DNA from: Sinohyriopsis cumingii
Taxonomy: Eukaryota > Mollusca > Bivalvia > Unionida > Unionidae
Direction: 5' to 3'
Length of the DNA stretch: 64,000 nt
Assembly (NCBI GenBank): GCA_028554795.2
Contig: CM068824.1
Span: 165,351,946 to 165,415,945 of the forward strand
Part shown: positions 4,538 to 24,617 of the stretch, piece by piece
Position numbering within the stretch: the stretch's first letter is position 1
Layout: each line of letters begins with the position of its first letter
The notes under the pieces: model-generated
Database searches by the model: none
The model's input: only the letters and a program-made list of their open reading frames with translations
What the model was told of the DNA's origin: nothing
Made by a program: the position numbers and the translations under genes

Positions 4538-4941
4538 AGTAGTGAAGGGGGATACCCTACGTACAATGGGAATTAGCATTACAGAACCCCTTGGGACACT
4601 CTACGTACAATGGAAATTTAACATGGCGAAAAATCGTGGGACACTCTACGTACAAGGGGAATTAACATGGGAATAAATCGTGGGACACTCTACGTACAAG
4701 GGGAATTAACATGGGAATAAATCGTGGGACACTCTACGTACAAGGGGAATTTAACATGGGAATAAATCGTGGGACAATCTACGTACAAGGGGAATTTAAC
4801 ATGGGAATAAATCGTGGGACAATCTACGTACAAGGGGAATTTAACATGGGATTTTTTTTTTAAATTTTTAAAAAAAAGGGGTAGGCAATGGAAAGGCTAT
4901 CTCTTTTCGAGAAATATGGGGGCCCTGAAAAGGGCCTTTGG
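4538..4941. repeat. Left terminal inverted repeat with subterminal array (Polinton 1)
   Basis: 404 bp, inverted relative to 24259-24617. It contains tandem units of 44-45 bp, each with the palindromic core TCTACGTACAAGGGGAA and ending GGGAATAAATCGT. The left repeat has one 45-bp unit more than the right. The inner part is an A/T run followed by a histone-type stem-loop, so that signal is part of the inverted repeat. Subterminal repeats are candidate integrase or terminal-protein binding sites (inference). Confidence 0.93.
4901..4936 (-). terminator. Histone-type 3' stem-loop and purine element, terminal gene 1
   Basis: On the minus strand, a 6-bp stem and 4-base loop GGCCCTTTTCAGGGCC (4921-4936) is preceded by CCAAA. 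Downstream is a purine-rich CTCGAAAAGAG (4901-4911), like the U7-pairing histone downstream element. It lies 16 bases after the stop codon of the gene at 4953-5333. Confidence 0.85.
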
Positions 4942-4952
4942 GTTTTCTGCTT

Positions 4953-5333
4953 CTAATTTCTTCTTTTCCTCCACCAACTTCTTATTTTATCTCCAACACT
5001 CTTTCTCTTCTTTTTTTTCTCCTCCTCTTCTTTCTTCTCTTCCTCCTCTTCTTCTTTCTTCCTCTTCTCATTTTCTTCTTCTTTTTCAATTTTTTCATTC
5101 CATGTTCTTATTCTTATCTTTTCCTCTTCATCCTCCTTCTCCTCCTTTATTTCCTTCATCACACCACTAATCTTGTCCTTTGCTTTTCTTAAGTTGTTAA
5201 TTTCCATCTTTACACGATGGGGACTATAGGAATAATGGTCTTCAACCAGTCTTATTAGCATCTGTTCCATTATTCCTAAGTTGTCTAAAACGTCTTGCAA
5301 GGTTTGTATTTTGTCCATTTGGTTTGACGCCAT
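4953..5333 (-). CDS. Terminal gene 1: Glu/Lys-rich coiled-coil protein, 126 aa
   Basis: Function unknown. The N-terminal 50 residues look like a mixed helical domain (LQDVLDNLGIMEQMLIRLVE). The middle (about 60-110) is an almost pure E/K run predicted to be a charged coiled coil or disordered. The end is basic with two Trp (KIRSWWRKRRN). The equivalent gene of element 2 (40822-41417) shares only this WW-basic tail and the E/K character, so the N-terminus has been replaced or evolves fast. ATG at 5333 is the first in frame, about 50 bases after a TATA-like CTATAAG. The 3' end is a histone-type stem-loop, and no AATAAA is seen. Confidence 0.65.
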   Translation of the reverse strand: MASNQMDKIQTLQDVLDNLGIMEQMLIRLVEDHYSYSPHRVKMEINNLRKAKDKISGVMKEIKEEKEDEEEKIRIRTWNEKIEKEEENEKRKKEEEEEEKKEEEEKKKKRKSVGDKIRSWWRKRRN

Positions 5334-5381
5334 CTTCTTTTTATTCTTTGCAGAATGGTTTGAACGACGAACACTGTGGGT

Positions 5382-5495
5382 TCTTATAGTGAAAGCGCGA
5401 ACGTGAAGGAAAACATCCCCCTAAAAACATAAAATGGATCTTACCTAGATCATGACCCAACAACGCGCGGACGTGAAGGAAAACATCCCCCTACT
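5382..5495 (-). promoter_or_regulatory. Promoter with duplicated box, terminal gene 1
   Basis: Two copies of the box read on the plus strand as GCGCGGACGTGAAGGAAAAC (one with A for G) followed by ATCCCC, at about 5395-5424 and 5465-5490. Between them is a conserved spacer with AACATAAAATGGATCTTACC. A TATA-like CTATAAG (minus) lies at 5383-5389, between the boxes and the gene. The same arrangement precedes terminal genes 2 and 3 in both elements. Confidence 0.7.
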
Positions 5496-5673
5496 TTTTT
5501 CATATAATAAAACCCTAACTATACTCTTCACATACGCTAAGAAACCCATAATTTACTATTCACACAAACATACCTCAGCTCTTACTAACACAAACACATA
5601 CACTTCCACTATTAATAAAGAGTTAGTGTTTATTTTCACACTACTCTACCTACACACATTGGCAAATTATTAG

Positions 5674-5714
5674 TTATTTCTTTTCTAGAGTATTGGGTAG
5701 CCCTTAAAAGGGCT
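5674..5714 (-). terminator. Histone-type 3' stem-loop and purine element, terminal gene 2
   Basis: Minus strand AGCCCTTTTAAGGGCT (5699-5714) followed directly by ACCCA, the canonical histone mRNA flank, then the purine-rich AGAAAAGAAATAA (about 5674-5686). It lies 27 bases after the stop codon at 5742. Confidence 0.85.
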
Positions 5715-5741
5715 GTTTTTTTGAACTCCTGATGCACCTAT

Positions 5742-6048
5742 CTAATGGTTGCACCTTCCTGGCCTGGCGCCGCACACGCATCTTCTTCCCCAGTCTTCTT
5801 TCACCTTTCTTTTGGGGAGCGCAGAGGAAGGATGATTCGCTTCAACACCCCAATCCTCTGTCTCGGGAATATTGAACGACATCCTCTCTTCTCTTTTCTT
5901 TTCCTCTTCTTCCCTCTCTCTTCTCTCCTCCTCTTCCTTCTTTACTCTTGCTTCTTCTACTATAGCCTCCGCTGATAGTTCGTTTACTATGCGCCTGACA
6001 TATTCCAGGTGCATCTGGAGTTAACAATTTCACTATTCTGCTATTCAT
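5742..6048 (-). pseudogene. Terminal gene 2: charged coiled-coil protein with CxC tail, frame-broken copy
   Basis: Function unknown. The protein has a short helical N-terminus, an E/R/K coiled-coil run, then a conserved non-repetitive tail (FNIPETEDWGVEANHP ... RRCVCGARPGRC). Relative to element 2 (41847-42155), two bases are missing at about 6022, so the frame from the first ATG (6048) breaks. The in-frame internal ATG at 6014 (MHLEYVRRIV) would still give 90 aa, and if that is the true start the gene is intact. Terminal promoter boxes lie upstream and a histone-type stem-loop downstream. Confidence 0.6.
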
Positions 6049-6103
6049 TCTTCTGGCTGTGTTGATCAATCAACAAGGGTAGCTAGACTGCCCAGCGAGT
6101 TTC

Positions 6104-6215
6104 AATTTATAGTGAAAGCGCGGACGTGATGGAAAACATCCCCTAATAACATAAAATTGATCTTACCTAGATCATGAACAAAAAATAAAACAACAACGCG
6201 CGGACCTAAAAGAAA
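6104..6215 (-). promoter_or_regulatory. Promoter with duplicated box, terminal gene 2
   Basis: TATA-like CACTATAAA (minus) at about 6106-6114, then box copy 1 at 6115-6145 (GCGCGGACGTGATGGAAAAC), the conserved AACATAAAATTGATCTTACC spacer, and a degenerate second box (GCGCGGACC) at about 6197-6206. Same design as at 5382-5495. Confidence 0.7.
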
Positions 6216-6470
6216 CACTCACTCACTTTTTTATGCTACCCATCACTATTGTAAAATTTTTTATAAATCACTTCAATAGACTATCCACATACTCAAAACA
6301 ATCCAATCTAACCCCAAATCTACACCTCAAACAACCCAGACATAATTTTAATCCACTATCCACACCAACCTACTTTATCACTTACAAACACATACCCTCA
6401 CATTTTTTCAAAAAGAGTTAGTGTTTATTTTCACACTACTCTACATACACACATTGGCAAATCGATCGTT

Positions 6471-6509
6471 ATTTCTTTTCTAGAGTATTGGGTAGCCCTG
6501 AAAAGGGCT
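6471..6509 (-). terminator. Histone-type 3' stem-loop and purine element, terminal gene 3
   Basis: Minus strand AGCCCTTTTCAGGGCT (6494-6509) followed by ACCCA and the purine-rich CTAGAAAAGAAATAA (about 6470-6484). It lies about 30 bases after the stop codon at 6539. Confidence 0.85.
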
Positions 6510-6538
6510 GTTTTTTTGTTTGCTATGGCATTCTTTTT

Positions 6539-6901
6539 TTAGTTTCTAAGAATGCGATGTCCTCTGAGGATAGACTTTCTGGCGATAGGTCTGCTTCTTC
6601 GAAAAGAGAAGAAGAACTCTTTAGTGTCGATACGGCAATCGACAAAGCCTCTGTCAGCTTCAGGTTGCTGCTGCTGTTGTTGCTGTTGTTGCTGCTGTTG
6701 CTGCTGTCTCTGAAGTCTGTACTTCTCTGTCCATTCTTCTTTTTCCCTGTTCATTTCTTCTCTGAAGAGCTCTTCTATCAGGTCTTCAGTGATTTTTAAC
6801 ATTCTCACATTCTCTATTTCTTCTGGCTTCGGTATCAGACTGTGTCTGACCCTATGCAAATTCACGTAGGCTTCGTTGAGCTTAGCTAGTTTGGAGCACA
6901 T
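6539..6901 (-). CDS. Terminal gene 3: polyglutamine protein, about 120 aa
   Basis: Unrecognised small protein. The N-terminal 70 residues are helical (LNEAYVNLHRVRHSLIPKPEE ...), followed by a run of 14 glutamines and a basic C-terminus (RRSRPIARKSILRGHRILRN). The start is the first ATG of the frame (MCSKLAK); upstream in-frame codons are not ATG. The element 2 copy (42682-43044) has the same 14-Gln length but different CAG/CAA choices. One terminal promoter box lies upstream at 6970-6995, and the 3' end is a histone-type stem-loop. Confidence 0.65.
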   Translation of the reverse strand: MCSKLAKLNEAYVNLHRVRHSLIPKPEEIENVRMLKITEDLIEELFREEMNREKEEWTEKYRLQRQQQQQQQQQQQQQQPEADRGFVDCRIDTKEFFFSFRRSRPIARKSILRGHRILRN

Positions 6902-6954
6902 CTTCGTAGGAGGATGAGTCGACAATGGATGGTTAGACTGGAAACAACCCCGGT

Positions 6955-6996
6955 TCTTAAAGTCAAAGCGCGGACGTGAAGGAAAACATCCCCCAC
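6955..6996 (-). promoter_or_regulatory. Promoter box, terminal gene 3
   Basis: Single copy of GCGCGGACGTGAAGGAAAAC plus ATCCCCC, next to TTCTTAAAGTC, which stands where the TATA-like element stands in the sister promoters. No second box was found here. Confidence 0.6.
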
Positions 6997-7238
6997 ACGG
7001 TTTTCGATCCGCAACGTTCAGTGAATGTCATGAGAGGGATAGTAAGAAATGAAAGAGCATCAATCCAACATTCTTCTAGCTAAACAAAAGACAAAGACAT
7101 TTTTTTCAAAACACAACATTTTTTATTCAAAAATCACTTAACACTAAACAACAACAACATTTTTTAACAATAATCCAACACTATAACATCAAACAATTTT
7201 TTTTTCAAATCACAAACATTTTTTTCTCAATGCACAAT
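6997..7238 (-). other. AT-rich 3' region of the minus-strand core block
   Basis: No coding sequence. Long A/T homopolymers with CAACATTTTTT repeats. A minus-strand AATAAA signal at 7122-7127 lies about 110 bases past the protease stop and would serve as the poly(A) signal of the core block, unlike the histone-type ends of the terminal genes. Confidence 0.6.
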
Positions 7239-7799
7239 CTACTTTAAACAGGGCTGACAACGTTGTGAATGAAATTGTGATTTCCACTGTTGGAAATCAT
7301 TAGGCCATTGATGGACACTACGTTTCCTAGCTTGAGACAAAAGATAAGCATAATGGTCACAAAACCATCGATCTACTTTCACATCGTTTCTAGCAGAAGA
7401 ACGAGGATCGAAATGAGTCACTAAATGTTCTAAGGAATAGCCCAGGCTGCGATGATGCAGAAAATACACACAGTACTGTCCACACACCAAGGAATCTGTG
7501 CCTTGTAATTTCACGTTATTGAATCGGGTGGTTTGAGCATTTCTTCTCATAAAGTCGATGATATCGTCTTCCAAAGGGGGCAATCCGTACGAATCGAAAT
7601 ATTCCACACAGCCTTCTTGAGGAAAGTAGACGGCTACCCAGTGGGTTCCTGGGAGATGACTGTCGTCCGTGTTGATCACGTAAGCTTGATGGTCTTTAGG
7701 TTTGCGATGAGGGAGTTCATCTTTAGCACAGACGACAGGATTCCAAGAAGCCGTATACGAACTGTGGTTCAAAAGGTAATAAAGTTCCCAGGTATCCAT
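7239..7799 (-). CDS. Adenain-like maturation cysteine protease (Polinton PRO), 186 aa
   Basis: A C5/C48 (adenovirus protease/Ulp1) family endopeptidase, expected to process capsid and core precursors in the particle. Catalytic residues are visible: His53 in GTHWVAVYF, Asp69 in EYFDSYG, Gln108 and Cys110 in CGQYCVYFLHHR. Length fits the family (about 180-210 aa). ATG at 7799 begins MDTWELYYLL; the same start is used in element 2. It is the last gene of the minus-strand core block, 24 bases after the zinc-binding small protein. Candidate substrates are the neighbouring basic proteins, which contain GG or GxG stretches. Confidence 0.93.
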   Translation of the reverse strand: MDTWELYYLLNHSSYTASWNPVVCAKDELPHRKPKDHQAYVINTDDSHLPGTHWVAVYFPQEGCVEYFDSYGLPPLEDDIIDFMRRNAQTTRFNNVKLQGTDSLVCGQYCVYFLHHRSLGYSLEHLVTHFDPRSSARNDVKVDRWFCDHYAYLLSQARKRSVHQWPNDFQQWKSQFHSQRCQPCLK

Positions 7800-7823
7800 T
7801 GATTTGTGTTTTTTTCTTCTTCT

Positions 7824-8306
7824 TCACAGGTAATAATAAGTCGTCAATTCGATCCTGACTTTTTGCTTGAAAATGTCTGACGAATAAACGGTTATTTGTT
7901 CTGTTTCCTCACTCTGATTCAGGAGAGCTTCGATACGATGGATCTCTTGAGTGGTTAATGGTGGACAAGAATGTTCACGCAAGTCTTTATACCACTGGTG
8001 CAACACGTCTTTGTTCGAGATGAGACTCCAAGCTTCGTCCAGATACTCGTCCAATTTTTCTTCTTGACTCAACATCAGGCATTTATCGTGTTGAATTTGA
8101 CTGGGATGATCGTTTTGACATCCATAACAATTTTTCTTGATCAATTCCGTTATTTTGTCGACCAAGTGTTTGGCAAAACAGGAGACTAAATGGGCTTCTT
8201 GTTCTGGCCATCTTGACTTCATCATGATCACTTCTTCTTCCACAGTTTCCTCACATTTCATCTCCAAAGTTTCTCCACTAGGTAAAGAGGGATAACAGTC
8301 TTCCAT
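7824..8306 (-). CDS. Small conserved Polinton protein with Cys/His cluster, 160 aa
   Basis: Family and function not known to me. The first 35 residues are acidic and variable between the two elements. The rest is conserved and mostly helical. NCYGCQNDHPSQIQHDKC (about residues 59-76) has Cys and His spacing suited to a small zinc site. It lies between the major capsid and protease genes with 5-base and 24-base gaps, suggesting a late structural or assembly role (inference). ATG at 8306. Confidence 0.75.
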   Translation of the reverse strand: MEDCYPSLPSGETLEMKCEETVEEEVIMMKSRWPEQEAHLVSCFAKHLVDKITELIKKNCYGCQNDHPSQIQHDKCLMLSQEEKLDEYLDEAWSLISNKDVLHQWYKDLREHSCPPLTTQEIHRIEALLNQSEETEQITVYSSDIFKQKVRIELTTYYYL

Positions 8307-8311
8307 AGCTT

Positions 8312-9631
8312 CTAATAATCTAGAATGACTTCTCTCAAACTGTTGATTTCTATGGTATTATCGAATTCGGCATACAGGATGACGTTCACTGTCTCTGGCA
8401 GAGGATTTGCAAACTGAAGTTCCACACGAATCTGGCCGGATTTTATAGGGTGGAAATGTCCCTCGTCGCTGCCTTGGTCTGGAGTGAAATCGAAAGCCCA
8501 CAAAGCATAGCCTCCTGCGTAATCGTCGTACGTAATGCCGTGACTGGTGTTGGTTCCTAACTGTCCCGTCGCTTCGTACAGGGACAAGTACGATCTCAAG
8601 TAATTCATTTTATTGGGAGAAAAGTCGGGTTCGAAAGGTCGGGTACACAAGGTCTTGCCATCGCGACTGACTTCGATTTTCTTCACGTTGAAGTGTTGAA
8701 AGTGGAAAGGATTTTCAGCGAAGGCTCCGTTGAAGGCTGCATTCGAGACCATACCAAGGATAAAACGTTTGGGTAACTGTCCTTGGAACAGATGATCTTC
8801 GATCATGGAATGATGTCCAATGGGAATGGTGAACGTTTTCACTTCCACACGTCGTATGGGATACTTGGCGGTCGTTCTGCTCAACGTCTGACTGATGTCG
8901 TTTCCCACTTTAGGTATCACTTCCACGCGTCGTACGTAAAGTTTGGCCTCCTCGATTTGGCTTTTAGGATTGCCAGTCTTAGTAGCAGTTTCATCAGCCA
9001 ACAAATGGAAAGTGGCACTGCTGCGATTCAGTCTCAGGCGCACATTGACCCCGTTCAGCAAATATTTCTCTTGCAACCACATGTCCAAATGCAAACGATC
9101 CATCAGTTCTAAACTCTTTTTACCTGTGATTCTGCTTCGTCTTTCCCCAAAGCCGTCATTGTCACCTGCGTCAACTATCTTAAACTTGCCCGCTTCGTCA
9201 GCTTCCCATACCACACAAGCATTGAGATGGGTGTTCTTGGCATCTATTCCGTACGTCAAGAGATTTTCCAGGTAGGCACGGTAAGGGTAAGTATCCATGC
9301 TGCTGCTGACCAGTTTGTTATTCAAGTACAAGTCCACTCCACTAAACAAGGAATGCATGAAATTGTTGACGGGAGCTATAATCTCAGTGTCTTCTACTGT
9401 ACCATCATCCTTATCTAGAACTTTGACTTTCAAGTACAAGTAACTGCTATTCAGATCGATGTAATCTTCGGGCTGTCCTTTGATTTCAAACTCGATGGGA
9501 GCTGAGGCTGTCAATGAGGAGACGGGATGAAATTCCACCCATTGGGATTCTTGCATGGTCATCATGGTGGGGGGCATGGCAAACAGATCCAGTTCCGTCT
9601 TGGAACAGGCGCAAGACTCTCGGTGCATCAT
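8312..9631 (-). CDS. MCP: Major capsid protein, double jelly-roll type, about 439 aa
   Basis: Matches the Polinton major capsid family, known to form double jelly-roll, hexon-like capsomers. Characteristic stretches include IEFEIKGQPEDYIDLNSSYL near the N-terminus, NNFMHSLFSGVDLYLNN at about 90-106, and the C-terminal DYAGGYALWAFDFTPDQ and VNVILYAEFDNTIEIN. The first ATG pair is at 9631; a second cluster (MMTMQESQW) at 9565 is an alternative start giving 417 aa. Element 2 breaks the frame between the two, which favours the inner start or a defect there. It is 11 bases from the pX/pVI-like gene. Confidence 0.9.
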   Translation of the reverse strand: MMHRESCACSKTELDLFAMPPTMMTMQESQWVEFHPVSSLTASAPIEFEIKGQPEDYIDLNSSYLYLKVKVLDKDDGTVEDTEIIAPVNNFMHSLFSGVDLYLNNKLVSSSMDTYPYRAYLENLLTYGIDAKNTHLNACVVWEADEAGKFKIVDAGDNDGFGERRSRITGKKSLELMDRLHLDMWLQEKYLLNGVNVRLRLNRSSATFHLLADETATKTGNPKSQIEEAKLYVRRVEVIPKVGNDISQTLSRTTAKYPIRRVEVKTFTIPIGHHSMIEDHLFQGQLPKRFILGMVSNAAFNGAFAENPFHFQHFNVKKIEVSRDGKTLCTRPFEPDFSPNKMNYLRSYLSLYEATGQLGTNTSHGITYDDYAGGYALWAFDFTPDQGSDEGHFHPIKSGQIRVELQFANPLPETVNVILYAEFDNTIEINSLREVILDY

Positions 9632-9642
9632 TTTTCTATGTT

Positions 9643-10059: not shown

Positions 10060-10070
10060 GACTTACTTAC

Positions 10071-11011: not shown

Positions 11012-11421
11012 AATTCCAGAGTTCTGTGGCTGTCCGAGGGGTTAGTGGATGTCAGAGGCGTGTCTCCGCCCAAAATGGGGTTCTGGTTGTGGTTGTTGGA
11101 GTGGTGACTGGCACTGGCACTGGACACAACGTTCCCGTTCGAGGAGAATTTCAGGGAGGGATTGGGAAGCAGGTAACCGATGCAACTGCTCAATAAAATG
11201 GTCCACAATTGTTTGTCTCCTTGTTGCAAACTCAAATTGGCGATGGCTGCCCCGATGACACAATACACCACGAAGATTTGGCAGAAAAAGACGATTTGCG
11301 TTTTAGGCACACGTTCTCCACACCACACCCACAAGGGTTGTTTTTGTAAATCTTGCACAGAAGAACTAGGGGAAGAAGGAGTGGTCGACGTAGCTGCGTC
11401 TGCTGCTGTGTGAAAGGGCAT
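11008..11421 (-). CDS. Polinton membrane protein, two transmembrane segments, 137 aa
   Basis: Conserved Polinton-associated family of unknown function, probably virion or assembly related. A Ser/Thr-rich N-terminus (1-28) is followed by TM1 at about 42-62 (IVFFCQIFVVYCVIGAA) and TM2 at about 72-86, which ends in the family signature GYLLPNPSLKF. The tail is polar and variable between elements. First ATG is 11421 (MPFHTAADAA). A TATAAAAA box lies about 20 bases upstream, and the stop overlaps the penton ATG by 4 bases (11008-11011). Confidence 0.75.
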   Translation of the reverse strand: MPFHTAADAATSTTPSSPSSSVQDLQKQPLWVWCGERVPKTQIVFFCQIFVVYCVIGAAIANLSLQQGDKQLWTILLSSCIGYLLPNPSLKFSSNGNVVSSASASHHSNNHNQNPILGGDTPLTSTNPSDSHRTLEL

Positions 11422-11426
11422 GATGG

Positions 11427-12538: not shown

Positions 12539-12559
12539 TTTTTTGTGTTGATTGGTGTC

Positions 12560-13213: not shown

Positions 13214-13256
13214 GGGGTTGTCAGGGGTGAATTCTGAGATCTTGGGACTTCCGAAG

Positions 13257-13720: not shown

Positions 13721-13732
13721 CTTTTTTTGGGA

Positions 13733-15767: not shown

Positions 15768-15799
15768 TTTTTCAGAACACGTTTATTCAATGTTTTTTT

Positions 15800-16313: not shown

Positions 16314-16528
16314 GGAGGTGGTAAGTACTGATCGTAAAGAGTCCACAAAGAATCGGCTGGTAAACGAAATCCCAAAAAACAAGTCACTAAGACACACACC
16401 ACTTGTCGTCCCAAATTAAATGAATACAGTTCTTGTAATAATCGATGGTAATGATCCACGGTTTGAATATGGTCATTGAGTTCCTTCCACGGAATCTGTT
16501 GGATTACATACGACATAAGTCGTGGCAT
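16304..16528 (-). CDS. Hypothetical protein, 74 aa
   Basis: Not recognised. Starts MPRLMSYVIQQIPWKELNDH; contains a hydrophobic stretch (VVCVLVTCFLGFRL at about 42-55) that could be a membrane segment, and ends LPPPWP. ATG 16528 is 9 bases after a CTATAAAAAC box. It overlaps the preceding 172-aa gene by 56 bases. The same length and near-identical sequence are present in element 2. Confidence 0.5.
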   Translation of the reverse strand: MPRLMSYVIQQIPWKELNDHIQTVDHYHRLLQELYSFNLGRQVVCVLVTCFLGFRLPADSLWTLYDQYLPPPWP

Positions 16529-16991
16529 AGCTGCCTGTTTTTATAGTCTCTTTGTTTCGAAAAGAATACACGTACTTTCTAGCCAGTGATGTTCGTTTTC
16601 CAGTTGGGAATGTAAATCTTGCATACTGTAACCGAAACGTCAGAGTTCGATTAGAAGTTTCCTCTTCCGCTAAGTAGATTCCACGTAACAAATGTTGGTA
16701 ATCCTTTACCTCGTCTTCCTCAATGGGTTGCTCTAGGTGAATCTCGAAGTAACCAAAATGATCAACACGTGAATCATCGGGGGCCTGGAAGTATTGAACA
16801 AGGTCTGACCACTGAAACAATTTCTGACGAATCAGTTCTCTTATACCATTCAGGTACCAGTGGTTAAAGATCTGGTGACGTAACGGATGCAATTGTTCTT
16901 TACGTTTCACTTGTATTTTCACCAGCTCTCGGTAAATGCGTTCTCTCAACTCCACAGGCAAAGCACGAATGTTCTCTAGCAAAGTATCCAT
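16473..16991 (-). CDS. F-box-like small protein A, 172 aa
   Basis: Paralogue of the next gene upstream. The first 45 residues of the two are almost identical, including ALPVELRERIYRELV, which fits the LPxELxxxIxxxL pattern of F-box helices. The rest diverges but keeps a common plan. If it is a genuine F-box it would recruit a Skp1-Cullin ubiquitin ligase, a host-manipulation function; this rests on a short motif only. Neighbours are the paralogue and a BIR protein. ATG 16991. Confidence 0.5.
   Translation of the reverse strand: MDTLLENIRALPVELRERIYRELVKIQVKRKEQLHPLRHQIFNHWYLNGIRELIRQKLFQWSDLVQYFQAPDDSRVDHFGYFEIHLEQPIEEDEVKDYQHLLRGIYLAEEETSNRTLTFRLQYARFTFPTGKRTSLARKYVYSFRNKETIKTGSYATTYVVCNPTDSVEGTQ
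16537..16546 (-). promoter_or_regulatory. TATA box for 74-aa gene region
   Basis: Minus strand CTATAAAAAC, 9 bases upstream of ATG 16528. Because it is so close, it may rather drive the 107-aa gene at 16313. Confidence 0.4.
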
Positions 16992-17003
16992 GAATAGGTC
17001 ATA

Positions 17004-17459
17004 CTAAATCCTCTTTGGTCTGACACAAGAAATGTACTCTTTGCACAAACATGGTTTCACTTCAGTGTCGAATTTAAATCGTTGAGTCACTAATCTACAC
17101 ATTACAATTCGTTCAGAAGTTTCCTCTTTCACCAAGTTGACATTGTGTTCAAGATGTTGGTAATTCGTTAACTCTTCCTCTGGAATTCGATGCAGTACGT
17201 TTACAATGATGTAGGTAGAATCGTCCATACCAAACCAATCCTTTTTAAAACTAGAGGATCGTTCATCAATGTCTGTCCGATGGAACACTTTCAATTGAAT
17301 CAATCCTTGTATAGCCTTCAGGTACCAGTGGTTCAAACACCGGTGACGTAACGGATGCAATTGTTCTTTACGTTTCACTTGTATTTTGACCAGCTCTCGG
17401 TAAATGCCTTCTCTCAACTCCACAGGCAAAGCACGAATGTTCTCTTGTAAAGTATCCAT
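17004..17459 (-). CDS. F-box-like small protein B, 151 aa
   Basis: Tandem paralogue of the 172-aa gene, 12 bases upstream of it. Shares MDTLxENIRALPVELRExIYRE and the following basic segment (VKRKEQLHPLRH). The middle contains FKKDWFGMDD and a conserved EEELTNYQHLEHN. F-box-like motif as in protein A, with function inferred only. In element 2 the first half of protein A is closer to protein B than it is in element 1, suggesting gene conversion between the pair. Confidence 0.5.
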   Translation of the reverse strand: MDTLQENIRALPVELREGIYRELVKIQVKRKEQLHPLRHRCLNHWYLKAIQGLIQLKVFHRTDIDERSSSFKKDWFGMDDSTYIIVNVLHRIPEEELTNYQHLEHNVNLVKEETSERIVMCRLVTQRFKFDTEVKPCLCKEYISCVRPKRI

Positions 17460-17487
17460 GAACAGATTATTATGGTAAGAAGTTACT

Positions 17488-18231
17488 TCAATGTCTCGGT
17501 CCCACTAAGGGTAAGTAATGACAATTCGGTGACCATCGAGCATGTTCTACGTAGGCCGAATCTTGCGGTTCCCAGTGGTGAAGTGACACACCGCAACTGA
17601 AGCACTTGACTTTATCTCCTTCGCCCAAGTAGAAAAATCCGGCTCTGGCTAATTCTTCGGGGGTCGGTCCTCCCAGATACTTAGGCCATTTTCCTTTGAA
17701 CGATTGAAGACGATTTTCAAAGTCGCAGTATTCAGACAAACGCACAGGAAACGAATATTCGTCTTTCACAGGTTCGTTTCGATGAGGGTTGGGTGACATG
17801 GGTAGGAGTTTGCTCAGGGCTGGATGACATCCGTAGGGGGGTAGACGTGAAGGTGAACATTCCCCTTTAAAACGAAACCCAGTAAAATGTCCAAGAGGAC
17901 GAGCAGCATCGCTTTCGCATCCCACAGGTTTGACACGCACAGCATCACTTTCCATGACAGGGGCAGTGAGAACAAAGTTCCCATGATGCTTTACGGCATC
18001 GCTCAGGTCACAAGGTACAGCATCGGTCCCATCGCAAGGCTCACAATCGCACTCGTCTGCAAACTCCGTTACGCAATTACAATGGTAACCACATGGACAA
18101 TCGCAGTTTCCTTCCGGACATTTTCCGTCGCAATGTCTGGGTCTTATCCATCCAGTATTAGTCACACTAGAGGAAGATACAACTTTTTTACAATCCACAA
18201 ACTGGAACGATGTCTCTTTCAAAGTATTCAT
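17488..18231 (-). CDS. BIR-domain (IAP-like) protein with Cys-rich N-terminus, 247 aa
   Basis: Residues about 170-241 are a baculovirus IAP repeat: RLQSFKGKWP, LARAGFFYLGEGDKVKCFSC, then H230 and C237 completing the zinc site with C210 and C213. BIR proteins bind caspases or IAP antagonists and block apoptosis; here the host cell death response would be the target (inference). Residues 30-75 are a dense Cys cluster of unknown type, and 66-110 repeat an S/T-D-A-V motif four times. No RING domain is present. ATG 18231; a TATATAAAA box lies about 55 bases upstream. Confidence 0.85.
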   Translation of the reverse strand: MNTLKETSFQFVDCKKVVSSSSVTNTGWIRPRHCDGKCPEGNCDCPCGYHCNCVTEFADECDCEPCDGTDAVPCDLSDAVKHHGNFVLTAPVMESDAVRVKPVGCESDAARPLGHFTGFRFKGECSPSRLPPYGCHPALSKLLPMSPNPHRNEPVKDEYSFPVRLSEYCDFENRLQSFKGKWPKYLGGPTPEELARAGFFYLGEGDKVKCFSCGVSLHHWEPQDSAYVEHARWSPNCHYLPLVGPRH

Positions 18232-18276
18232 CTTGTTCGCTCGGTCTTGGTAGTCCCAATGAACTATCGATCTTGC

Positions 18277-21200
18277 CTAGGGTTCCTTTTTTATATACAG
18301 ACCAATACCGACGTGACCGTACGGCAACGTAAAGTGATTGGGAAGTCGAACTCGCTTGTGGTATACAATTTGATAGACTTTTTCCAAGGGTCGACTGACG
18401 ATGTGGTGAGTGGGTAAACGTACAATTTTGTTCGGTTGGTAGGTGGTCACTTTAAAGTTTCCATCCTCTCCCGATTGCAAGGCTTCTTTCAATACCCCAA
18501 AGTTGACCACTCGACTGGTACGATAATTCAGAGTCAGTCCTTTCACTTTGCACGTCGTGTGCACTTCTCCTTGTTTGTCACGGTATTCGTAACCGTAATT
18601 TTTGGGACCGCCACTGACAAAACTTAGAATATTGTCGTCGGGATGCTCGTCTGTCCAGGCTCCTAAACGGTCTCCTTCGATGTTAGGGTGATGTTGAATC
18701 GGGTGATGGATGTAAATGCAACTGTCCGTGTCAAAGTACAGGACGCGTTCTTCTAACAGTTCTAAAGCTTCGTACAATTTTAAGCGAGCATGGGCTGTCA
18801 CGTAAGCCGCAATGATGACATTTCCAAAAGGGTCGTCTTGTACAAAGTCCAGATCTTCTTCGTAATTGACCAAGATCAAATTCTCTCGAACGACGTCCAC
18901 GTGTTTCATGTATTTGGTTTTGTCGTGAATCATCTGGAAGTAGCGGGAAGGTTCTGTCAAATATTCCGTCTTGGGTAAACACGGTCGTTGTGCCATTTTA
19001 CCCCACAAGCAATTTAACATCACTTTGGCAAACGATCGCCTGCCTTCGTTTTTCTCGATGTGGTCTAAAGTGATGCCTTCTTGTTCGTAATATTTCTCTT
19101 TGAATTTTATTTGGTCTTCGGGAGTGTGACACCAGGAAGGATAGCCGCTGGCTTCTTGCTTCAGTTTCAAAAAGGCATCCACGTAGTCGGCGAAAATGCC
19201 TTTCTGAGTAGGGTCACCCTTGTGATACTGTTGTGTCTTGGGAAAGTGGCAAATTTCGTATACTTCTAACAGTTCGTATCCCATGTCCAGAGCTTTGAAC
19301 AATTCTACGCTGACCCAGGTTCCCGTCAAGGCCCGTTCTTCCTGGCTGTGATGACAAGGCTGGTCTTGGTTGCACGTTTCGGCACAAGTACGGCACAAGG
19401 GAAACATCAGTTTGCCTTGACAATGGTGAGGTAAGACGGGATGGTATAGGTTCGTGGGAGGCAAAACTTTGCACTTGATCAAGCCTTCGTATTGTCGAAT
19501 GTTTTTCAGGTCGATGTGTTCCGTTAACAATTGCGGGTGCCCTACAGGAAAGCGACAATATTTGCACACGTAGGGATACAGCGAACACACGTCCAAGTAT
19601 TTGATTTCTTCTCCTTTCTCTTCGTCGGCTTGGTACAGCAAACAGGTGGCATTGGTCCTTCCTCCGTACAAACTATCCCTCGGGTTCAGCGGGTCCATGA
19701 ACTGGTAACTTTCCACGGCACGTTTAAACTCGGGATCGGTTTTCATACGGTGATCGTACTCGTGTTCCCACATTTCCACCACTTGGTATCCTTGCTGTTC
19801 TAACTTTAGGCGTCGCTGACAAGTGTCCTGGTACAAGTCTTCCATGGTTCGTTGCAAAAACTGATTTTTAGTGCCACGGTCAGGGTAACAAACAGGACAT
19901 CCGTGAAATAAGCAACCGTTAAACTCGTACACAATCTTGGGGTTTTCTAAGTCCCAGCCATCGACCGAATACGTTCCGATGGTCTTTTCGCCCCCTCCGT
20001 TGCGGGCATGCTGAATCCACTTGTCTTCCTTGTCGCACAAGTAATGTAACCAGCGTAAGGCTTTGACCGAGTATTGACGTTTGACAAAGTGGGTCGTTTG
20101 AGGGCTGATGACAGCCACGGTGTTTTCAGGCATGAATCGTTGGCGGTACACTAAGGAACACGCTTTGGCAATGGTGCAAGCTTCTTTCAAAGGATCGACC
20201 CCTCCGTGTTCCATGAACAGTTCTCGAAATTTTCCACAGCAACGCCGTAAAATGTCCACGTCGGAACGACAATACTTTAGCATTTCTTCCTGAAAGTCGA
20301 AAGGGTCCGAGGCGTGAATCTGGTACCAAGCGTAGAAAGCTTCTCGTTGTTCGGTACGCATGTTGTCGGGGTCGTAATAGTGAGCCTCGGGCAAATGGGG
20401 TAGAACGGCGTGTTGATTGGCTTCCGTATTGAAAAAGTGTGGAAAGTACATTTTAGCCATTTCTGTCATTCCAAACGTTTTAGGCATTCGACTCAAAGGC
20501 ATGGCCAAATAACTCATCGAATCTTTAAACTGTACTTGTCCCACTTGCATCAAAATGATTTTGGCTCCGTTCAAAGTCACTTTAGGACGCTCGGTGCCTT
20601 GTTCCGTATAGTATCTGAGAAGAAACTGTCCATCGTATCCGGAAAAATTGTGAGCCATCACCGTGGCATGACGATGACAATCTCCGTAACGTTCAATGTC
20701 CTCTTGGCTCCACGTCTTGTCGACGGGGTCTAAGACCCATTGGGCAAAATCGGCTAACGTGTTTGGTCCCCGAAAGATTTTTTCACGCCCTCCAGGAATT
20801 TTGCTGCAGTGAGGGCAATGACTGAAGATAGGTTCTTGAATACACTTCTCGCACGCTCGATGAGCCACGCAGAAATTAGGAATGTGAATGCCAGTCTCTT
20901 GCATGCATTCGAAATCGAAAAAGATGAAATTGCCTTTCTTCTTGTGACCGTCCTCTTTCTCTGGTGGGGGTTGGTATTTTTGCACGTAACATTCGTGTTC
21001 CAAGTCCACGATGTGGTGACAAATGTGACATTTTTTCTTTCCTGAACATACGTGTGCCTTGGTATTATTGGTACGTATGACTTGTTCACACGTAGAGCAC
21101 AATCTCAGGAGTTGACAAGCGCATTTTTTCTGTGAACCTTGCGTCTTCAAATGTTGTTGGTAACAGGTAGGGCTGACAAACGTGCGCAGACAAGTGGAAC

Positions 21201-22323
21201 AAGGCACTGGTTCTTCGCTCAGACAGGGTGAAGAGGCCAAACATCCTGTGCATTTCGATCCGCAATGTTTGTGTTGCTCTCGATTGTTATAACCATGGTC
21301 ACATTTCTCACAGTAATAACCGTATCGCAGGAATGCAGTGATACTGGTAATGGTATCGAAATGGTCATCGTGATGATAAAGGTGAATGTATTTTCCGTCC
21401 TTAAAGTCTTGGCCTCGAAACAACAGAGACCCACGCACTTCTTGAGGGTGCACTTTCAAGGTGTATCGTGGAGCTAGGGCATCTTGCAATTTTTGCATCT
21501 CAGGAATGCCACAGGGTGTGTCTTTGGACAGTCCGGCTTGTTGCAACAGGAGTTCTGCTTCGTTTCGTTGTTTGGCTCGATAGGAACGTTGAATAGTGTT
21601 CCAGGTTCTTTTCCATTCTACCGTGTCGTTCTTGTTGGCATAGGTTCGTCCCACCACGATGGCACGGGCTAAACACATCTGGTCATAACGGTTGTTAATT
21701 CGGACGAGACTCGTTTTGGTGTTGCGAAGGTCGTCCACCAATAACATCTTTTTGCGTCCAGTCCCTTGAGGAGGAGAGACGTGGGTCATGTCCAGTGTGG
21801 CTTTACCATCGGTGATGTCAAACTGATCATTAGATTGTTGTACGTGTTGAATCTTGTCCATGACTTTGGAAGCAGTCAATTCTGCAGGGGTGCTAAACTC
21901 GATCCAAACAGGGGATTTCAAACCGTCGTGATCTATGGAAAGTCTCAAGCGATCGTCTTCTTTGGGTTGACATTGTCGCTTGAGTGCAGTGAGCAAAGAA
22001 TCCCACACCTCAGTGATGAACACTTCTGCTTTCTCTAACGGCACTTCAGCCTTGAAATCTTTAAACTTCACTGTGTATTTGTAAGCCGTGGTTCTAAATT
22101 TTCTAGAGGAGCGCTTTTCCGTCTCTCGAATGGAATAGTACTTTTCAGGGTTGACTAAAGGTGGTGAACTTGGTTTAGAGGGTTCGGATTCTGGTTCACT
22201 CATGTCCTCTTCAAAATCACTGGCATGAATTTGTGCCAAGATTTCAGCCCTGGTACGAGGCGATAGATCACGTTTCTGCCTCTTACTTTCTTCTTTCTTC
22301 TCGAATGAATGGGATCGTTTCAT
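18277..22323 (-). CDS. pPolB: Protein-primed family B DNA polymerase, 1348 aa
   Basis: Replicates the element by protein priming. Motifs by residue: a 330-residue N-terminal region with no recognised domain; a Cys/His-rich zinc region (about 338-445); 3'-5' exonuclease ExoI FDFEC (469-473), ExoII NFSGYD (559-564), ExoIII YCRSD (684-688); a Vsr-like segment EFNGCLFHGCPVC then MWEHE (about 800-855); polymerase motif A DVCSLYP (911-917), motif B KVMLNCLWG (1100-1108), motif C YFDTDS (1196-1201). The frame is fully open here, unlike element 2. ATG 22323; the promoter region is shared with the divergent zinc-knuckle gene. Confidence 0.95.
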   Translation of the reverse strand: MKRSHSFEKKEESKRQKRDLSPRTRAEILAQIHASDFEEDMSEPESEPSKPSSPPLVNPEKYYSIRETEKRSSRKFRTTAYKYTVKFKDFKAEVPLEKAEVFITEVWDSLLTALKRQCQPKEDDRLRLSIDHDGLKSPVWIEFSTPAELTASKVMDKIQHVQQSNDQFDITDGKATLDMTHVSPPQGTGRKKMLLVDDLRNTKTSLVRINNRYDQMCLARAIVVGRTYANKNDTVEWKRTWNTIQRSYRAKQRNEAELLLQQAGLSKDTPCGIPEMQKLQDALAPRYTLKVHPQEVRGSLLFRGQDFKDGKYIHLYHHDDHFDTITSITAFLRYGYYCEKCDHGYNNREQHKHCGSKCTGCLASSPCLSEEPVPCSTCLRTFVSPTCYQQHLKTQGSQKKCACQLLRLCSTCEQVIRTNNTKAHVCSGKKKCHICHHIVDLEHECYVQKYQPPPEKEDGHKKKGNFIFFDFECMQETGIHIPNFCVAHRACEKCIQEPIFSHCPHCSKIPGGREKIFRGPNTLADFAQWVLDPVDKTWSQEDIERYGDCHRHATVMAHNFSGYDGQFLLRYYTEQGTERPKVTLNGAKIILMQVGQVQFKDSMSYLAMPLSRMPKTFGMTEMAKMYFPHFFNTEANQHAVLPHLPEAHYYDPDNMRTEQREAFYAWYQIHASDPFDFQEEMLKYCRSDVDILRRCCGKFRELFMEHGGVDPLKEACTIAKACSLVYRQRFMPENTVAVISPQTTHFVKRQYSVKALRWLHYLCDKEDKWIQHARNGGGEKTIGTYSVDGWDLENPKIVYEFNGCLFHGCPVCYPDRGTKNQFLQRTMEDLYQDTCQRRLKLEQQGYQVVEMWEHEYDHRMKTDPEFKRAVESYQFMDPLNPRDSLYGGRTNATCLLYQADEEKGEEIKYLDVCSLYPYVCKYCRFPVGHPQLLTEHIDLKNIRQYEGLIKCKVLPPTNLYHPVLPHHCQGKLMFPLCRTCAETCNQDQPCHHSQEERALTGTWVSVELFKALDMGYELLEVYEICHFPKTQQYHKGDPTQKGIFADYVDAFLKLKQEASGYPSWCHTPEDQIKFKEKYYEQEGITLDHIEKNEGRRSFAKVMLNCLWGKMAQRPCLPKTEYLTEPSRYFQMIHDKTKYMKHVDVVRENLILVNYEEDLDFVQDDPFGNVIIAAYVTAHARLKLYEALELLEERVLYFDTDSCIYIHHPIQHHPNIEGDRLGAWTDEHPDDNILSFVSGGPKNYGYEYRDKQGEVHTTCKVKGLTLNYRTSRVVNFGVLKEALQSGEDGNFKVTTYQPNKIVRLPTHHIVSRPLEKVYQIVYHKRVRLPNHFTLPYGHVGIGLYIKKEP
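18287..18297 (-). promoter_or_regulatory. TATA box for BIR gene
   Basis: Minus strand TATATAAAAAA, about 56 bases before ATG 18231, overlapping the last codons of the polymerase gene. Confidence 0.5.
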
Positions 22324-22457
22324 CTTGAAAGCAAAAAGTCAAATGACTCAAGTTCAAACACCATAAGCTACTCTATAGTCATAGCAGACCAGCGTATATA
22401 AAAGGGTGTGTGTCTTGTCCTTTCACTATTCATTTCACTCTCAAGCCGAGCACAACG
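22324..22457. promoter_or_regulatory. Divergent promoter, polymerase and zinc-knuckle genes
   Basis: 134 bases between the two ATGs. Plus-strand TATATAAAAGG at 22395-22405 lies about 55 bases before ATG 22458. On the minus strand a weaker GACTATAGAG lies at about 22370-22380. The region is nearly identical in element 2, suggesting joint expression of replication functions. Confidence 0.6.
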
Positions 22458-22922
22458 ATGGAAGAGACTAACCAGATGGAACGTTTCGTCAGAGCTTTGC
22501 GAGGGGTCATTAGAAAATTCTCTTCAGACCAGCCTACGGACTACTCTCCTTCCTTTCGAGATAAAAGTCAAGATACTTGCTATATCTGTCAGAAGAAAGG
22601 GCATTGGTCTTCAGAGTGTCCAGACCGTCAAAAACGAACAAAAACAGGGACTAAAAAAGACAAAAGTCAAGATACCTGTTATTATTGTAAAGAAAAAGGA
22701 CATTGGTCTCCAGATTGCCCAAAAAAGAAACAAGAGGAGTCAGAAGAAAAGAAGGATTCTTCAGAAGAAGAGAGGGATTCTTCGGAAGAAGAGAGGGATT
22801 CTTCAGAGGAAGAAAAAAGACAATTCTATTTACAAGAGGCAAAGAAACAGGAGAAGAAGAAAAGAAGAACGGAAGAAAATGAGGAAAAGACGGTGAAGAA
22901 ATTTAAAAAACAGAGAGAGTAA
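22458..22922 (+). CDS. Two-zinc-knuckle (CCHC) nucleic-acid-binding protein, 154 aa
   Basis: Two CX2CX4HX4C knuckles at residues 41-54 (CYICQKKGHWSSEC) and 74-87 (CYYCKEKGHWSPDC), as in retroviral nucleocapsid and cellular single-strand-binding proteins. They are followed by three repeats of an acidic E-RDSSEE motif and a basic K/E tail. Probably binds single-stranded nucleic acid during replication or packaging (inference). ATG 22458 (MEETNQMERF). It is the only core gene on the plus strand. Poly(A) signal AATAAA at 23003-23008. A decayed relative lies at 27159-27660. Confidence 0.8.
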   Translation: MEETNQMERFVRALRGVIRKFSSDQPTDYSPSFRDKSQDTCYICQKKGHWSSECPDRQKRTKTGTKKDKSQDTCYYCKEKGHWSPDCPKKKQEESEEKKDSSEEERDSSEEERDSSEEEKRQFYLQEAKKQEKKKRRTEENEEKTVKKFKKQRE

Positions 22923-23224
22923 ACAAGGAGAAAGAAGAAGTCAATGAACTTTTTATTAAAGTGTTGTGAATTGTGAATTGGATTGTAAAAAATGGAGAAA
23001 AGAATAAATGAATGATAAAAGGTAAGTGTCTTTGAGTTGTGATTTTAAAATAAGAAGCTACACTCACGCACTCATACACAGACACGTACTATAAGGGTAA
23101 AATGGGTGGTTTTTTTTTTTTTTTTTTTTTTTTTTGAGTTATTGGCAAATTGAAATTGTATTTCTTTTCGAGAAATGTGGGTGGCCCTGAAAAGGGCCTT
23201 TTTCTTGATGGTGAAGGGGTGAGT
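22923..23224. other. Convergent 3' region with poly(A) signal and poly-T tract
   Basis: No gene seen. AATAAA (plus) at 23003-23008 serves the zinc-knuckle gene. A run of about 26 T at 23110-23135 follows, then TTATTGGCAAATTGA and the histone-type element for the minus-strand gene. Two convergent transcripts thus end with different 3' signals within 200 bases. Confidence 0.65.
23164..23198 (-). terminator. Histone-type 3' stem-loop and purine element, terminal gene 4
   Basis: Minus strand GGCCCTTTTCAGGGCC (23183-23198) preceded by AAAAA and followed by ACCCACA, then CTCGAAAAGAAA (about 23161-23172). This is the closest of all copies to the animal histone consensus. It lies 27 bases after the stop at 23225. 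Confidence 0.9.
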
Positions 23225-23791
23225 TTAAGCAATCAACTTTAACTGTCTTATGCCTTTGCCACGGCCAAGGCCTACTTCTGGACTGCGTAATGTTGATGAT
23301 GATTGGGTTGAAATCACTAAGGGTGGTACGGTAGGCTTAGTCACAGGGTTGACGTGTTTAGCTCGGGAAGGTCGTATTCTCTTCGGTCGTGATAAAGAAG
23401 TCTGATACATTTGTTTCAGACTTCTTAACTCCGCTAAAATGTCCAACAGTACCGTGACCGTTTGATTTTCACCCTCTTGTTTCTTTGCTGCTACTTCTTC
23501 TTGCTGTTGTTTTTTTCTTACCTCTTCTTCTTGTTGCTGTTGCTGTAGGAGAAAAGCCTGTTCCGCTTCCTTTTGTCGTTGTATAAATTTCTCCAATTCT
23601 TCTTTCTGTCTCTGTCTAAAATTCTCCACTTGCGGTAATGAAGAAGGTAACGAAGGTTCCGGAACAAATTCTTGCGAGGAGAGAAAATCCACAAAATCCC
23701 AATTCACCTCTTCTGAAAGTAAGTCCGAGTTCCCTTGGGCAGTCTCCCCTGCTGGTGCACCCCAATGGATCGTTTTCTGAGTTTCCGTCAT
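23225..23791 (-). CDS. Terminal gene 4: Gln/Glu-rich coiled-coil protein, 188 aa
   Basis: Not recognised. Acidic N-terminus with NWDFVDFLSSQEF, a long coiled coil (about 55-110) with Q and E/K runs, then a short helix DILAELRSLKQMYQ and a basic Pro/Ser tail with PKRIRPSRAKH. Element 2 has three extra Gln but is otherwise near identical. ATG 23791. Divergent from terminal gene 5; the 3' end is a histone-type stem-loop. The acidic-plus-coiled-coil plan could suit a transcriptional regulator (inference). Confidence 0.65.
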   Translation of the reverse strand: MTETQKTIHWGAPAGETAQGNSDLLSEEVNWDFVDFLSSQEFVPEPSLPSSLPQVENFRQRQKEELEKFIQRQKEAEQAFLLQQQQQEEEVRKKQQQEEVAAKKQEGENQTVTVLLDILAELRSLKQMYQTSLSRPKRIRPSRAKHVNPVTKPTVPPLVISTQSSSTLRSPEVGLGRGKGIRQLKLIA

Positions 23792-24010
23792 GTTGAATCA
23801 CTGTCGCATAGATTGACTGCACACAAGCGCTAGCGAATCTATATAGACTACGTGAGGTCACAGACTGCACTCTTCGGATTGGATGCGGGCTGACTGAATT
23901 CTGTAACGCGTGTTCGGATTGGTGAATGAACTCAATCCGTTTCAATCCTTCCTGTACCTATAAATAAGCGCCGTTCACTGCATTGATTCACCTATTCTCG
24001 GAGCCTCAAC
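23792..24010. promoter_or_regulatory. Divergent CCAAT/TATA promoter of terminal genes 4 and 5
   Basis: 219 bases between ATGs. Minus-strand TATA CTATATAGA at about 23838-23847; plus-strand TATA CTATAAATA at 23958-23966. Two CGGATTGG boxes (CCAAT reversed) at 23875-23882 and 23915-23922, plus CAATCCG nearby. The layout of a divergent pair sharing CCAAT boxes and TATA boxes resembles paired histone genes. Confidence 0.65.
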
Positions 24011-24241
24011 ATGTGGACAGACGTTGAATCTTCAACCCTTGTGTCAACAATGATGTTCAGGACGGACATGCTCATGTATGTCCGATCCAAGTGGACCGTT
24101 GTCCACAGGACCAACAGCAGCCTGTGGATAAGAAGAGTCTATATAGAGAGACAAGGTTGCCTCAAGAGGACTCTGATGTATGGCCCTGCTGTAAGACGAA
24201 GTTTGAGGAAAAGAAGATGTCGCAAATGCCCTTTATGTTAA
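24011..24241 (+). CDS. Terminal gene 5: small basic protein with CxxC end, 76 aa
   Basis: Not recognised. Met/Thr/Val-rich first half, basic second half ending RRCRKCPLC. Element 2 differs at one residue and a third Polinton at the window end retains a related C-terminus (LIYGPEVRRSLRKRR, then CPLC), so the protein is under selection. ATG 24011 is about 45 bases after the TATA box. The stop is 22 bases before a histone-type stem-loop that is part of the terminal repeat, making this the outermost gene. Confidence 0.7.
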   Translation: MWTDVESSTLVSTMMFRTDMLMYVRSKWTVVHRTNSSLWIRRVYIERQGCLKRTLMYGPAVRRSLRKRRCRKCPLC

Positions 24242-24258
24242 GGGCATATTAACATAAA

Positions 24259-24617
24259 CCAAAGGCCCTTTTCAGGGCCCCCATATTTCTCGAAAAGAGA
24301 TAGCCTTTCCATTGCCTACCCCTTTTTTTTAAAAATTTAAAAAAAAAATCCCATGTTAAATTCCCCTTGTACGTATATTGTCCCACGATTTATTCCCATG
24401 TTAAATTCCCCTTGTACGTAGAGTGTCCCACGATTTATTCCCATGTTAATTCCCCTTGTACGTAGAGTGTCCCACGATTTATTCCCATGTTAATTCCCCT
24501 TGTACGTAGAGTGTCCCACGATTTTTCGCCATGTTAAATTTCCATTGTACGTAGAGTGTCCCAAGGGGTTCTGTAATGCTAATTCCCATTGTACGTAGGG
24601 TATCCCCCTTCACTACT
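24259..24617. repeat. Right terminal inverted repeat (Polinton 1)
   Basis: 359 bp, inverted copy of 4538-4941 with one 45-bp array unit fewer. Ends ...CCCTTCACTACT at 24617. Confidence 0.93.
24264..24301 (+). terminator. Histone-type 3' stem-loop and purine element, terminal gene 5
   Basis: Plus strand GGCCCTTTTCAGGGCC (24264-24279) preceded by ACCAAA and followed by CCCA, with CTCGAAAAGAGATAG at about 24289-24303. Mirror image of the copy at 4901-4936, because both lie in the inverted repeat. Confidence 0.85.

Follow-up and report, generated by a model that had tools for sequence, protein, structure and literature searches.

Introduction

Textbook accounts give replication-dependent histone genes an SLBP/U7 3' end, and in animals the hairpin-ended histone mRNAs are S-phase-bound. 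In animal genes of this class a small uninterrupted open reading frame (ORF) is followed, after a short stop-to-stem gap with an A-rich 5' flank, by a 16-nt stem-loop with a UUUC/UUUA loop and, ca. 12 nt further on, by a purine box. The same arrangement was found at the terminal genes of a Polinton/Maverick element (element 1) in a stretch of 64,000 nucleotides from the bivalve Sinohyriopsis cumingii (assembly GCA_028554795.2, contig CM068824.1, positions 165,351,946 to 165,415,945, forward strand), called the window below. The terminal genes differ from histone genes in having no histone match and in being dispersed in a mobile element, not gathered in the 8.3-kb host unit. The comparisons make it very probable that they are built like the host replication-dependent histone genes, borrowing transcription signals and SLBP/U7 3' processing.

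With Polinton/Maverick elements and adintoviruses element 1 shares PolB, an rve integrase with chromo domain, an A32/FtsK-type ATPase, a protease (below cut-off), inverted repeats and a 6-bp target-site duplication; the histone-type gene ends are the difference. The Pfam matches were type-B DNA polymerase (PF03175, 139.8 bits), rve integrase (PF00665, 54.4 bits) and packaging ATPase (PF04665, 32.8 bits, cut-off 22.8); the match to an adenovirus-type protease stayed below cut-off. The target-site duplication, ATCACT, was located by eye at 4532–4537 and 24618–24623.

Histone 3' UTR (untranslated region) stem-loops are counted (n = 6) among the RNA classes of Polinton-like virus and virophage genomes, with none in cryptophyte elements, in the pertinent section of PMC12220804. 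The presence of the stem-loop in the wider Polinton-like group is thus already in print: the Rfam-type feature is the same and the element group related. That section gives a bare count and is silent on gene context, on a downstream element, on any comparison with the host and on function. The first-pass annotation of this DNA had known of no description in Polintons; in view of this tally the statement has to be narrowed, and it holds for the terminal-gene arrangement, which was not found among the matches listed. In the same matches, which leave most subscription literature outside their scope, neither histone-type ends of Polinton terminal genes nor the downstream box, the match to the host or the promoter boxes in common with it were described. 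Histone or stem-loop 3' ends were absent from the searched passages of PMC8097293, PMC4028283 and PMC11071296, and the passages of PMC5799277 and PMC10794571 had no bearing on histone-type Polinton ends.

Stem-loops and purine boxes of the terminal genes

The terminal ORFs of element 1 encode 126, 90, 120, 188 and 76 amino acids (T126, T90, T120, T188 and T76). Features of element 1 (coordinates in the window, strand, description; scores for RF00032, the Rfam histone 3' stem-loop model, gathering score 34):

4538..24617, no strand: element 1, Polinton/Maverick, with PolB, rve integrase and chromo domain, A32/FtsK ATPase and inverted repeats; ends by eye
4538..4944, no strand: left terminal inverted repeat, T126 stem-loop at its inner edge
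4902..4909, minus: T126 purine box CGAAAAGA, like a histone downstream element (HDE), 11 nt past the stem
4921..4936, minus: T126 histone-type stem-loop GGCCCTTTTCAGGGCC, 32.2 bits, under gathering score
4953..5333, minus: terminal gene T126, 126 aa, Glu/Lys-rich; TAF4 match weak, sub-threshold
5679..5686, minus: T90 purine box AGAAAAGA, 12 nt past the stem
5699..5714, minus: T90 stem-loop AGCCCTTTTAAGGGCT, 31.1 bits, under gathering score
5742..6014, minus: terminal gene T90, 90-aa ORF; relatives have a longer ORF
6474..6481, minus: T120 purine box AGAAAAGA, 12 nt past the stem
6494..6509, minus: T120 stem-loop AGCCCTTTTCAGGGCT, 31.0 bits, under gathering score
6539..6901, minus: terminal gene T120, 120 aa, poly-Gln
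23163..23170, minus: T188 purine box CGAAAAGA, 12 nt past the stem
23183..23198, minus: T188 stem-loop GGCCCTTTTCAGGGCC, 41.2 bits, above gathering score
23225..23791, minus: terminal gene T188, 188 aa
24011..24241, plus: terminal gene T76, 76 aa, basic, Cys-rich end
24256..24617, no strand: right terminal inverted repeat, T76 stem-loop at its inner edge
24264..24279, plus: T76 stem-loop GGCCCTTTTCAGGGCC, 32.2 bits, under gathering score
24291..24298, plus: T76 purine box CGAAAAGA, 11 nt past the stem

The first-pass annotation had described a stem-loop 16–30 bases past the stop codon of all five terminal genes and a purine-rich stretch 10–15 bases downstream, and both descriptions were borne out: the stop-to-hairpin distance was 16 (T126), 27 (T90), 29 (T120), 26 (T188) and 22 nt (T76), every hairpin was on the coding strand, and CGAAAAGA or AGAAAAGA began 11–12 nt past the stem. 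The histone stem-loop model, which the annotation had proposed as a check, scored all five (31.0–41.2 bits, one of them above 34). Over the whole window RF00032 gave 11 sites of 41.2 to 19.0 bits, five in element 1, five in element 2 and one in element 3, three of which (41.2, 41.2 and 35.6 bits) reached the gathering score; up to E = 10 the model matched nothing else in the window.

The pattern RGCCCTTTTMAGGGCY (at most two mismatches) was matched 12 times in the window, one match being the same palindrome on the opposite strand, against 0.17 expected and a maximum of 2 over 100 shuffles. A chance origin of the hairpins was rejected on the shuffles of the window and on the genome-wide controls, which gave 0. 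A bacterial-type terminator or an inverted-repeat artefact was also rejected, because the loop and the purine box orient the hairpin, and this orientation follows the coding strand in 5/5 cases. The five amount to about three independent sequences, since the terminal inverted repeat supplies both the hairpin at 4921 and the one at 24264, and a 133-nt repeat is common to the sites at 5699 and 6494.

A reading of the terminal genes as divergent histones was unsupported: T126 is Glu/Lys-rich and repeat-like, with a sub-threshold TAF4 match only, and the five genes gave sub-threshold Pfam matches or none.

Comparison with the host histone genes

The host assembly (2.90 Gb) contained 114 H4 matches, mainly in tandem units of ca. 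8.3 kb; the named relatives of its H1 and of the PolB point to a host that is probably a bivalve mollusc. One unit (L188 with L196) was used for the comparison and all five of its genes were read. Host hairpins: GGCCCTTTTTAGGGCC (H3 and H4), GGCCCTTTTCAGGGCC (H2B), GGCCCTTTTAAGGGCC (H2A) and GGTCCTTTTCAGGACC (H1), the stem being the same in four of the five genes; purine box: AGAAAAGA, in H2A CGAAAAGG; stem-to-box spacing: 12 nt in H3, H4 and H2B, 13 nt in H2A and H1; RF00032: 35.0–39.4 bits for the five hairpins of this unit, below the best Polinton copies and above several of the window hairpins. At the ends of element 1 the stem is either identical or closed by an A-U pair, and similar boxes follow at 11–12 nt. 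After the stem, ACCCA was present at 119 of 152 Polinton sites (CCCAT in T126 and T76 of element 1), whereas the five host genes have ACACA, ACAAA, ATACA or ACTTT. In the mouse H2a substrate ACCCA precedes the cut and the purine core of the HDE is AAAGAG, according to PMC7026596; AAAGAG is also present in the T126 and T76 boxes. In this one unit the host comparison fits a histone-type 3' end closely.

Promoters of the left-end genes

The elements were compared word by word with the H3-H4-H2B part (3.3 kb) of the host histone unit, the rest of the unit being compared separately. A new observation concerns the T90 promoter, which has two stretches in common with host histone promoters: the longest shared stretch free of low complexity was GATGTTTTCCATCACGTCCGCGCT (24 nt, host H2B and T90 promoters), and the second longest was TTTCTTTTAGGTCCGCGCGTT (21 nt, host H4 promoter and upstream of T90). 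Promoter features of element 1:

5465..5472, minus: T126 upstream box GTCCGCGC; second box, GTTCGCGC, at 5395
6117..6140, minus: T90 promoter box, equal to the host H2B promoter over 24 nt
6195..6215, minus: T90 upstream box, equal to the host H4 promoter over 21 nt
6968..6975, minus: T120 upstream box GTCCGCGC

Next in length came the stem-loop and then one 16-nt stretch in which the coding part of host H3 agrees with the window at 11416, judged to be chance. The remaining part of the host unit added only 14–15-nt stretches; there, the H1 promoter has, ahead of its TATA, a box 14 nt of which are identical with T90. One 14-nt stretch was shared by the 15.9 kb between the elements, and nothing by the 4.5 kb to the left of element 1. 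The boxes GTCCGCGC, GTTCGCGC or GTACGCGC occur ten times in the window, in each case ahead of one of the three left-end genes in element 1 or 2, and the box 23-mer was found 6,101 times in the genome (host H2B copies included; control 0). TATA-like boxes were seen by eye near the start of the terminal genes, and a divergent promoter serves both T188 and T76. The boxes held in common with H2B, H1 and H4 fit the S-phase part of the reading given in the first-pass annotation.

Occurrence in the genome

RF00032 was applied to a portion of 589,472 first-look candidates; the 75 places obtained represent a minimum, and hairpin score determined their selection. All 75 exceeded the gathering score (34.5–45.6 bits) and were spread over many contigs. 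At 73 of them tblastn with the window proteins (E ≤ 1e-4) gave a Polinton terminal-gene homologue; of the remaining two, one had the 186-aa core gene at 97% and one, with no protein match, looked by eye like a Polinton end. Typed core histones (H2A, H2B, H3 and H4; H1 was not queried) gave 0/75 matches by tblastn, and the host core-histone genes were absent from this set. An all-family Rfam scan of 20 fetched loci returned 24 RF00032 matches above cut-off, none of them in L141, the piece of the third element outside the window. A further terminal stem-loop, other than the one by which the locus had been selected, was present in 27 of the 30 best loci (28 further sites).

The exact pattern of hairpin, ACCCA and purine box, which none of the five host histone genes read matches, occurred at 27,435 genome sites (reversed control 0). 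One hundred of these places were listed, which cluster towards a single end of contig C1; among them were 57 A-type sites, 46 of which had a same-strand G-type partner 12.5–18.5 kb off in element order, and 3/57 a partner in the opposite order. As a side observation, the Polinton load of this genome is very high, as judged from the 6,101 exact promoter boxes and the 27,435 sites, and the host probably carries several thousand element copies.

Conservation of the 3' region

In an anchored search [G/A]AAAAG was required at 11–13 nt, with the loop TT[T/A]N then A and a G-C second pair, which by construction fixes the second pair and, in pair six, the A. It gave 152 sites in 77 sources (the 75 loci, L141 and the window), 147 of them at exactly 12 nt. 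All six stem pairs were intact at 136 sites; the first pair was G-C at 118, A-T at 26 (both sides changed), G-T at 2 and broken at 6.

Mean pairwise identity in four groups of 3' regions, whose rows come mostly from loci found by a stem-loop, was 0.94–1.0 for the hairpin, 0.88–0.96 for the purine-box bin, 0.77–0.86 for the seven-nt spacer and 0.84–0.97 for ACCCA (which in the T76 rows did not exceed the spacer). Some coding and flanking bins were equally high, so that conservation by itself does not settle the matter. For T76 (21 intact copies, 203 pairs used) the median synonymous divergence (dS) was 1.0 and the ratio of non-synonymous to synonymous divergence (dN/dS) 0.11; its stem-loop was invariant in 21 rows, 15 of which had been found through the same stem-loop. 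For T188 (14 intact copies, 91 pairs) the median dS was 0.08 and dN/dS 0.44. Given T76 dS of ca. 1.0 against 0.08 for T188, the end genes may have been exchanged between lineages.

Polintons from another source and viral contigs

An alignment of PolB was used to scan bacterial and archaeal genomes, and three Polinton contigs (L107, L108 and L109) were obtained. They are filed in bacterial genome bins, where they are probably contamination. The PolB of L108 (CALIZB010000033.1), read as three open pieces, is 38% identical in the best stretch. At the end of L108 an 89-aa C2H2 zinc-finger ORF is followed by 28 nt, GGCCCTTATCAGGGCC (RF00032 35.8 bits), ACCCC and, 12 nt past the stem, AAAAAAGAGA; the region before this ORF has TGACGTCA motifs. 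Hairpins in other Polintons, the absence of which the first-pass annotation had regarded as damaging to its proposal, are accordingly present in the same genome (73/75 places) and in L108. The terminal gene of L108 shares its C2H2 zinc-finger character with the 'Ziftr' genes of adintoviruses described in PMC11071296; the difference is that the term 'stem-loop' does not appear in the main text of that paper.

Among viral contigs the PolB alignment retrieved five distant relatives, and the ATPase search retrieved none. Two of the five (L102 and L106) gave no histone match in the Rfam scan; a pairing scan of all five gave four sites (L104–L106), none of them histone-like by eye. In the IMG/VR contigs a 16-mer scan returned 101 stretches, each with at most two of five histone flank features; a stricter pattern returned 0 and two further patterns 4 and 0, the four lacking histone-like flanks by eye.

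Poly(A) signals

According to the first-pass annotation the core genes show AATAAA in place of the stem-loop. This held for two of the 17 core ORFs, the one that closes the minus-strand block (signal at +111 nt) and ORF 22458–22922 on the plus strand, and failed for the other 15, where neither AATAAA nor ATTAAA occurs in the 400 nt past the stop; the signal is moreover present on three terminal genes. The plus-strand ORF encodes a CCHC zinc knuckle, is divergent to PolB and has its own AATAAA 80 nt past the stop.

Proposed mechanism and points against it

In the proposed route host SLBP would bind the hairpin, the U7 snRNP (small nuclear ribonucleoprotein) would pair with the purine box, CPSF73 would cut between the two, and the mRNA would end in the hairpin with no poly(A). 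More conjecturally, expression of the terminal genes, which are probably early, would be confined to or boosted in S phase, when the DNA-replicating element would need them, and the core block, with polymerase, integrase, ATPase and further genes, would take a different route.

Several results weigh against this proposal. Four of the five element 1 hairpins are 2–3 bits below the RF00032 cut-off (31.0–32.2 bits), three of the five in element 2 have one mismatched pair, two decayed hairpins of element 3 were seen by eye beyond the window edge, a pair is broken at 16 of the 152 anchored sites, and three of the 30 best loci (L128, L130 and L137) have no second stem-loop. AATAAA lies 107–109 nt past the stop in two left-end terminal genes and 267 nt in a third; the genes concerned are T90, T120 and T188, for which poly(A) use is therefore possible, and the signal at ca. 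110 nt in the two left-end genes could serve as a fallback. A search for the host U7 snRNA was negative: the one RF00066 candidate had 29.3 bits, below cut-off, and was rejected on inspection for want of a proper Sm site. The right-end genes T188 and T76 have no GTCCGCGC box, and there is none before the zinc-finger ORF of L108. Among Polintons from another source RF00032 was positive in L108 only, with no match in L107 and L109; that absence says little, because L109 is nearly all PolB and L107 is full of core genes, neither having an apparent element end. No histone-like match was found in the IMG/VR contigs.

Alternative explanations

The most serious alternative accepts the 3' processing and denies the S-phase coupling, the hairpin being useful solely for efficient early termination or for export. 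It is favoured by the right-end genes, with no histone promoter box, and by L108, where TGACGTCA motifs but no GTCCGCGC precede the zinc-finger ORF; the histone promoter boxes on the left-end genes and the S-phase-bound character of hairpin-ended histone mRNAs in animals speak against it, and we regard it as unlikely, while giving it real weight. A sponge effect, in which the hairpins would titrate SLBP or U7 and lower the host histone supply, is quite improbable: the 27,435 exact sites do stand against at most ca. 570 host histone hairpins (an estimate, 114 H4 matches × 5 genes per unit, as in the single unit read), but copy number is not expression, and most copies are probably silent.

The signals might also be unused relics of captured host histone-gene DNA, the mRNAs being polyadenylated downstream. 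The 24- and 21-nt identities with the host H2B and H4 promoters, the AATAAA downstream of some terminal genes and the damaged hairpins of element 2 would agree with such an origin. Against it, the layout recurs in three different contexts (T76/T126 ends, T90/T120 and T188) and in the Polinton from another source, the T76 hairpin was kept while synonymous sites came near saturation (in a sample mostly chosen by hairpin), and the stem was preserved by double changes of the first pair; relics are accordingly considered very improbable. Least probable of all is a role of the hairpins as DNA signals (replication origin, packaging or integrase recognition) and not as RNA 3' ends: two of the five do lie inside the terminal inverted repeats and the stem is nearly palindromic, but three lie outside, all five are 16–29 nt past a stop on the coding strand, and the purine box is present at a spacing near that of host histone genes.

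Other features of the window

The window contains two long Polintons (element 1, and element 2 at 40508–60521) and the edge of a third. Stem-loops outside element 1 (RF00032 scores):

40782..40797, minus: element 2, left terminal gene, 23.7 bits; first pair broken
41805..41820, minus: element 2, T90, 21.3 bits; top pair broken
42638..42653, minus: element 2, T120, 19.0 bits; top pair broken
59141..59156, minus: element 2, T188, 41.2 bits
60232..60247, plus: element 2, T76, 35.6 bits
63871..63886, minus: third Polinton, 26.9 bits; one G-U pair

Between elements 1 and 2, two of the five terminal pieces are 96–97% identical, two 87–91% and the left-most 44% (gaps counted); the left-end gene piece thus differs, yet its stem-loop end is retained. 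The third Polinton (63845–64000, continued in L141 beyond the right edge) is diverged and decayed, with PolB pieces 66–77% identical and with partly broken stem-loops where they would be expected; at cut-off RF00032 had no match in L141.

The terminal inverted repeats of element 1 consist mostly of 44–45-bp tandem units (4538–4885 and 24315–24617). A 439-aa ORF at 8312–9631, considered as a possible capsid gene, had no Pfam match. The core ORF 17488–18231 (minus strand) has a BIR (inhibitor of apoptosis) domain of 83.8 bits and may, from this match, encode an anti-apoptotic protein; ORF 53427–54164 of element 2 matches it in size and place. Two adjacent ORFs at 16473–17459 have in common a 209-nt direct repeat, the copies of which are 86% alike and which is found in element 2 too. 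Outside the elements, a 4,228-bp tandem repeat extends over 30168–40507 and 60522–63175, its third copy harbouring element 2, and a long inverted repeat at 21–107, with sub-cut-off matches to microRNA families on both strands, is probably a miniature transposon.

Significance

The broadest form of the proposal is that Polintons of several animal lineages took over the histone promoter box and the SLBP/U7 3' end for their early genes, which would wake only in S phase, and that the element, its hairpins outnumbering those of the host ca. 50:1, would perhaps be the main genomic client of SLBP and U7; it is put forward tentatively, its chance being judged slightly short of even. The non-polyadenylated transcripts suggested here would be missed by poly(A)-selected RNA sequencing, and the proposal offers a direct test of the timing of Polinton expression. 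The element copies would also supply thousands of natural variants for studies of SLBP/U7 recognition. If true, terminal genes with histone-type ends and a histone promoter box would clearly exemplify a parasite coupling its gene expression to host DNA replication by way of RNA processing.

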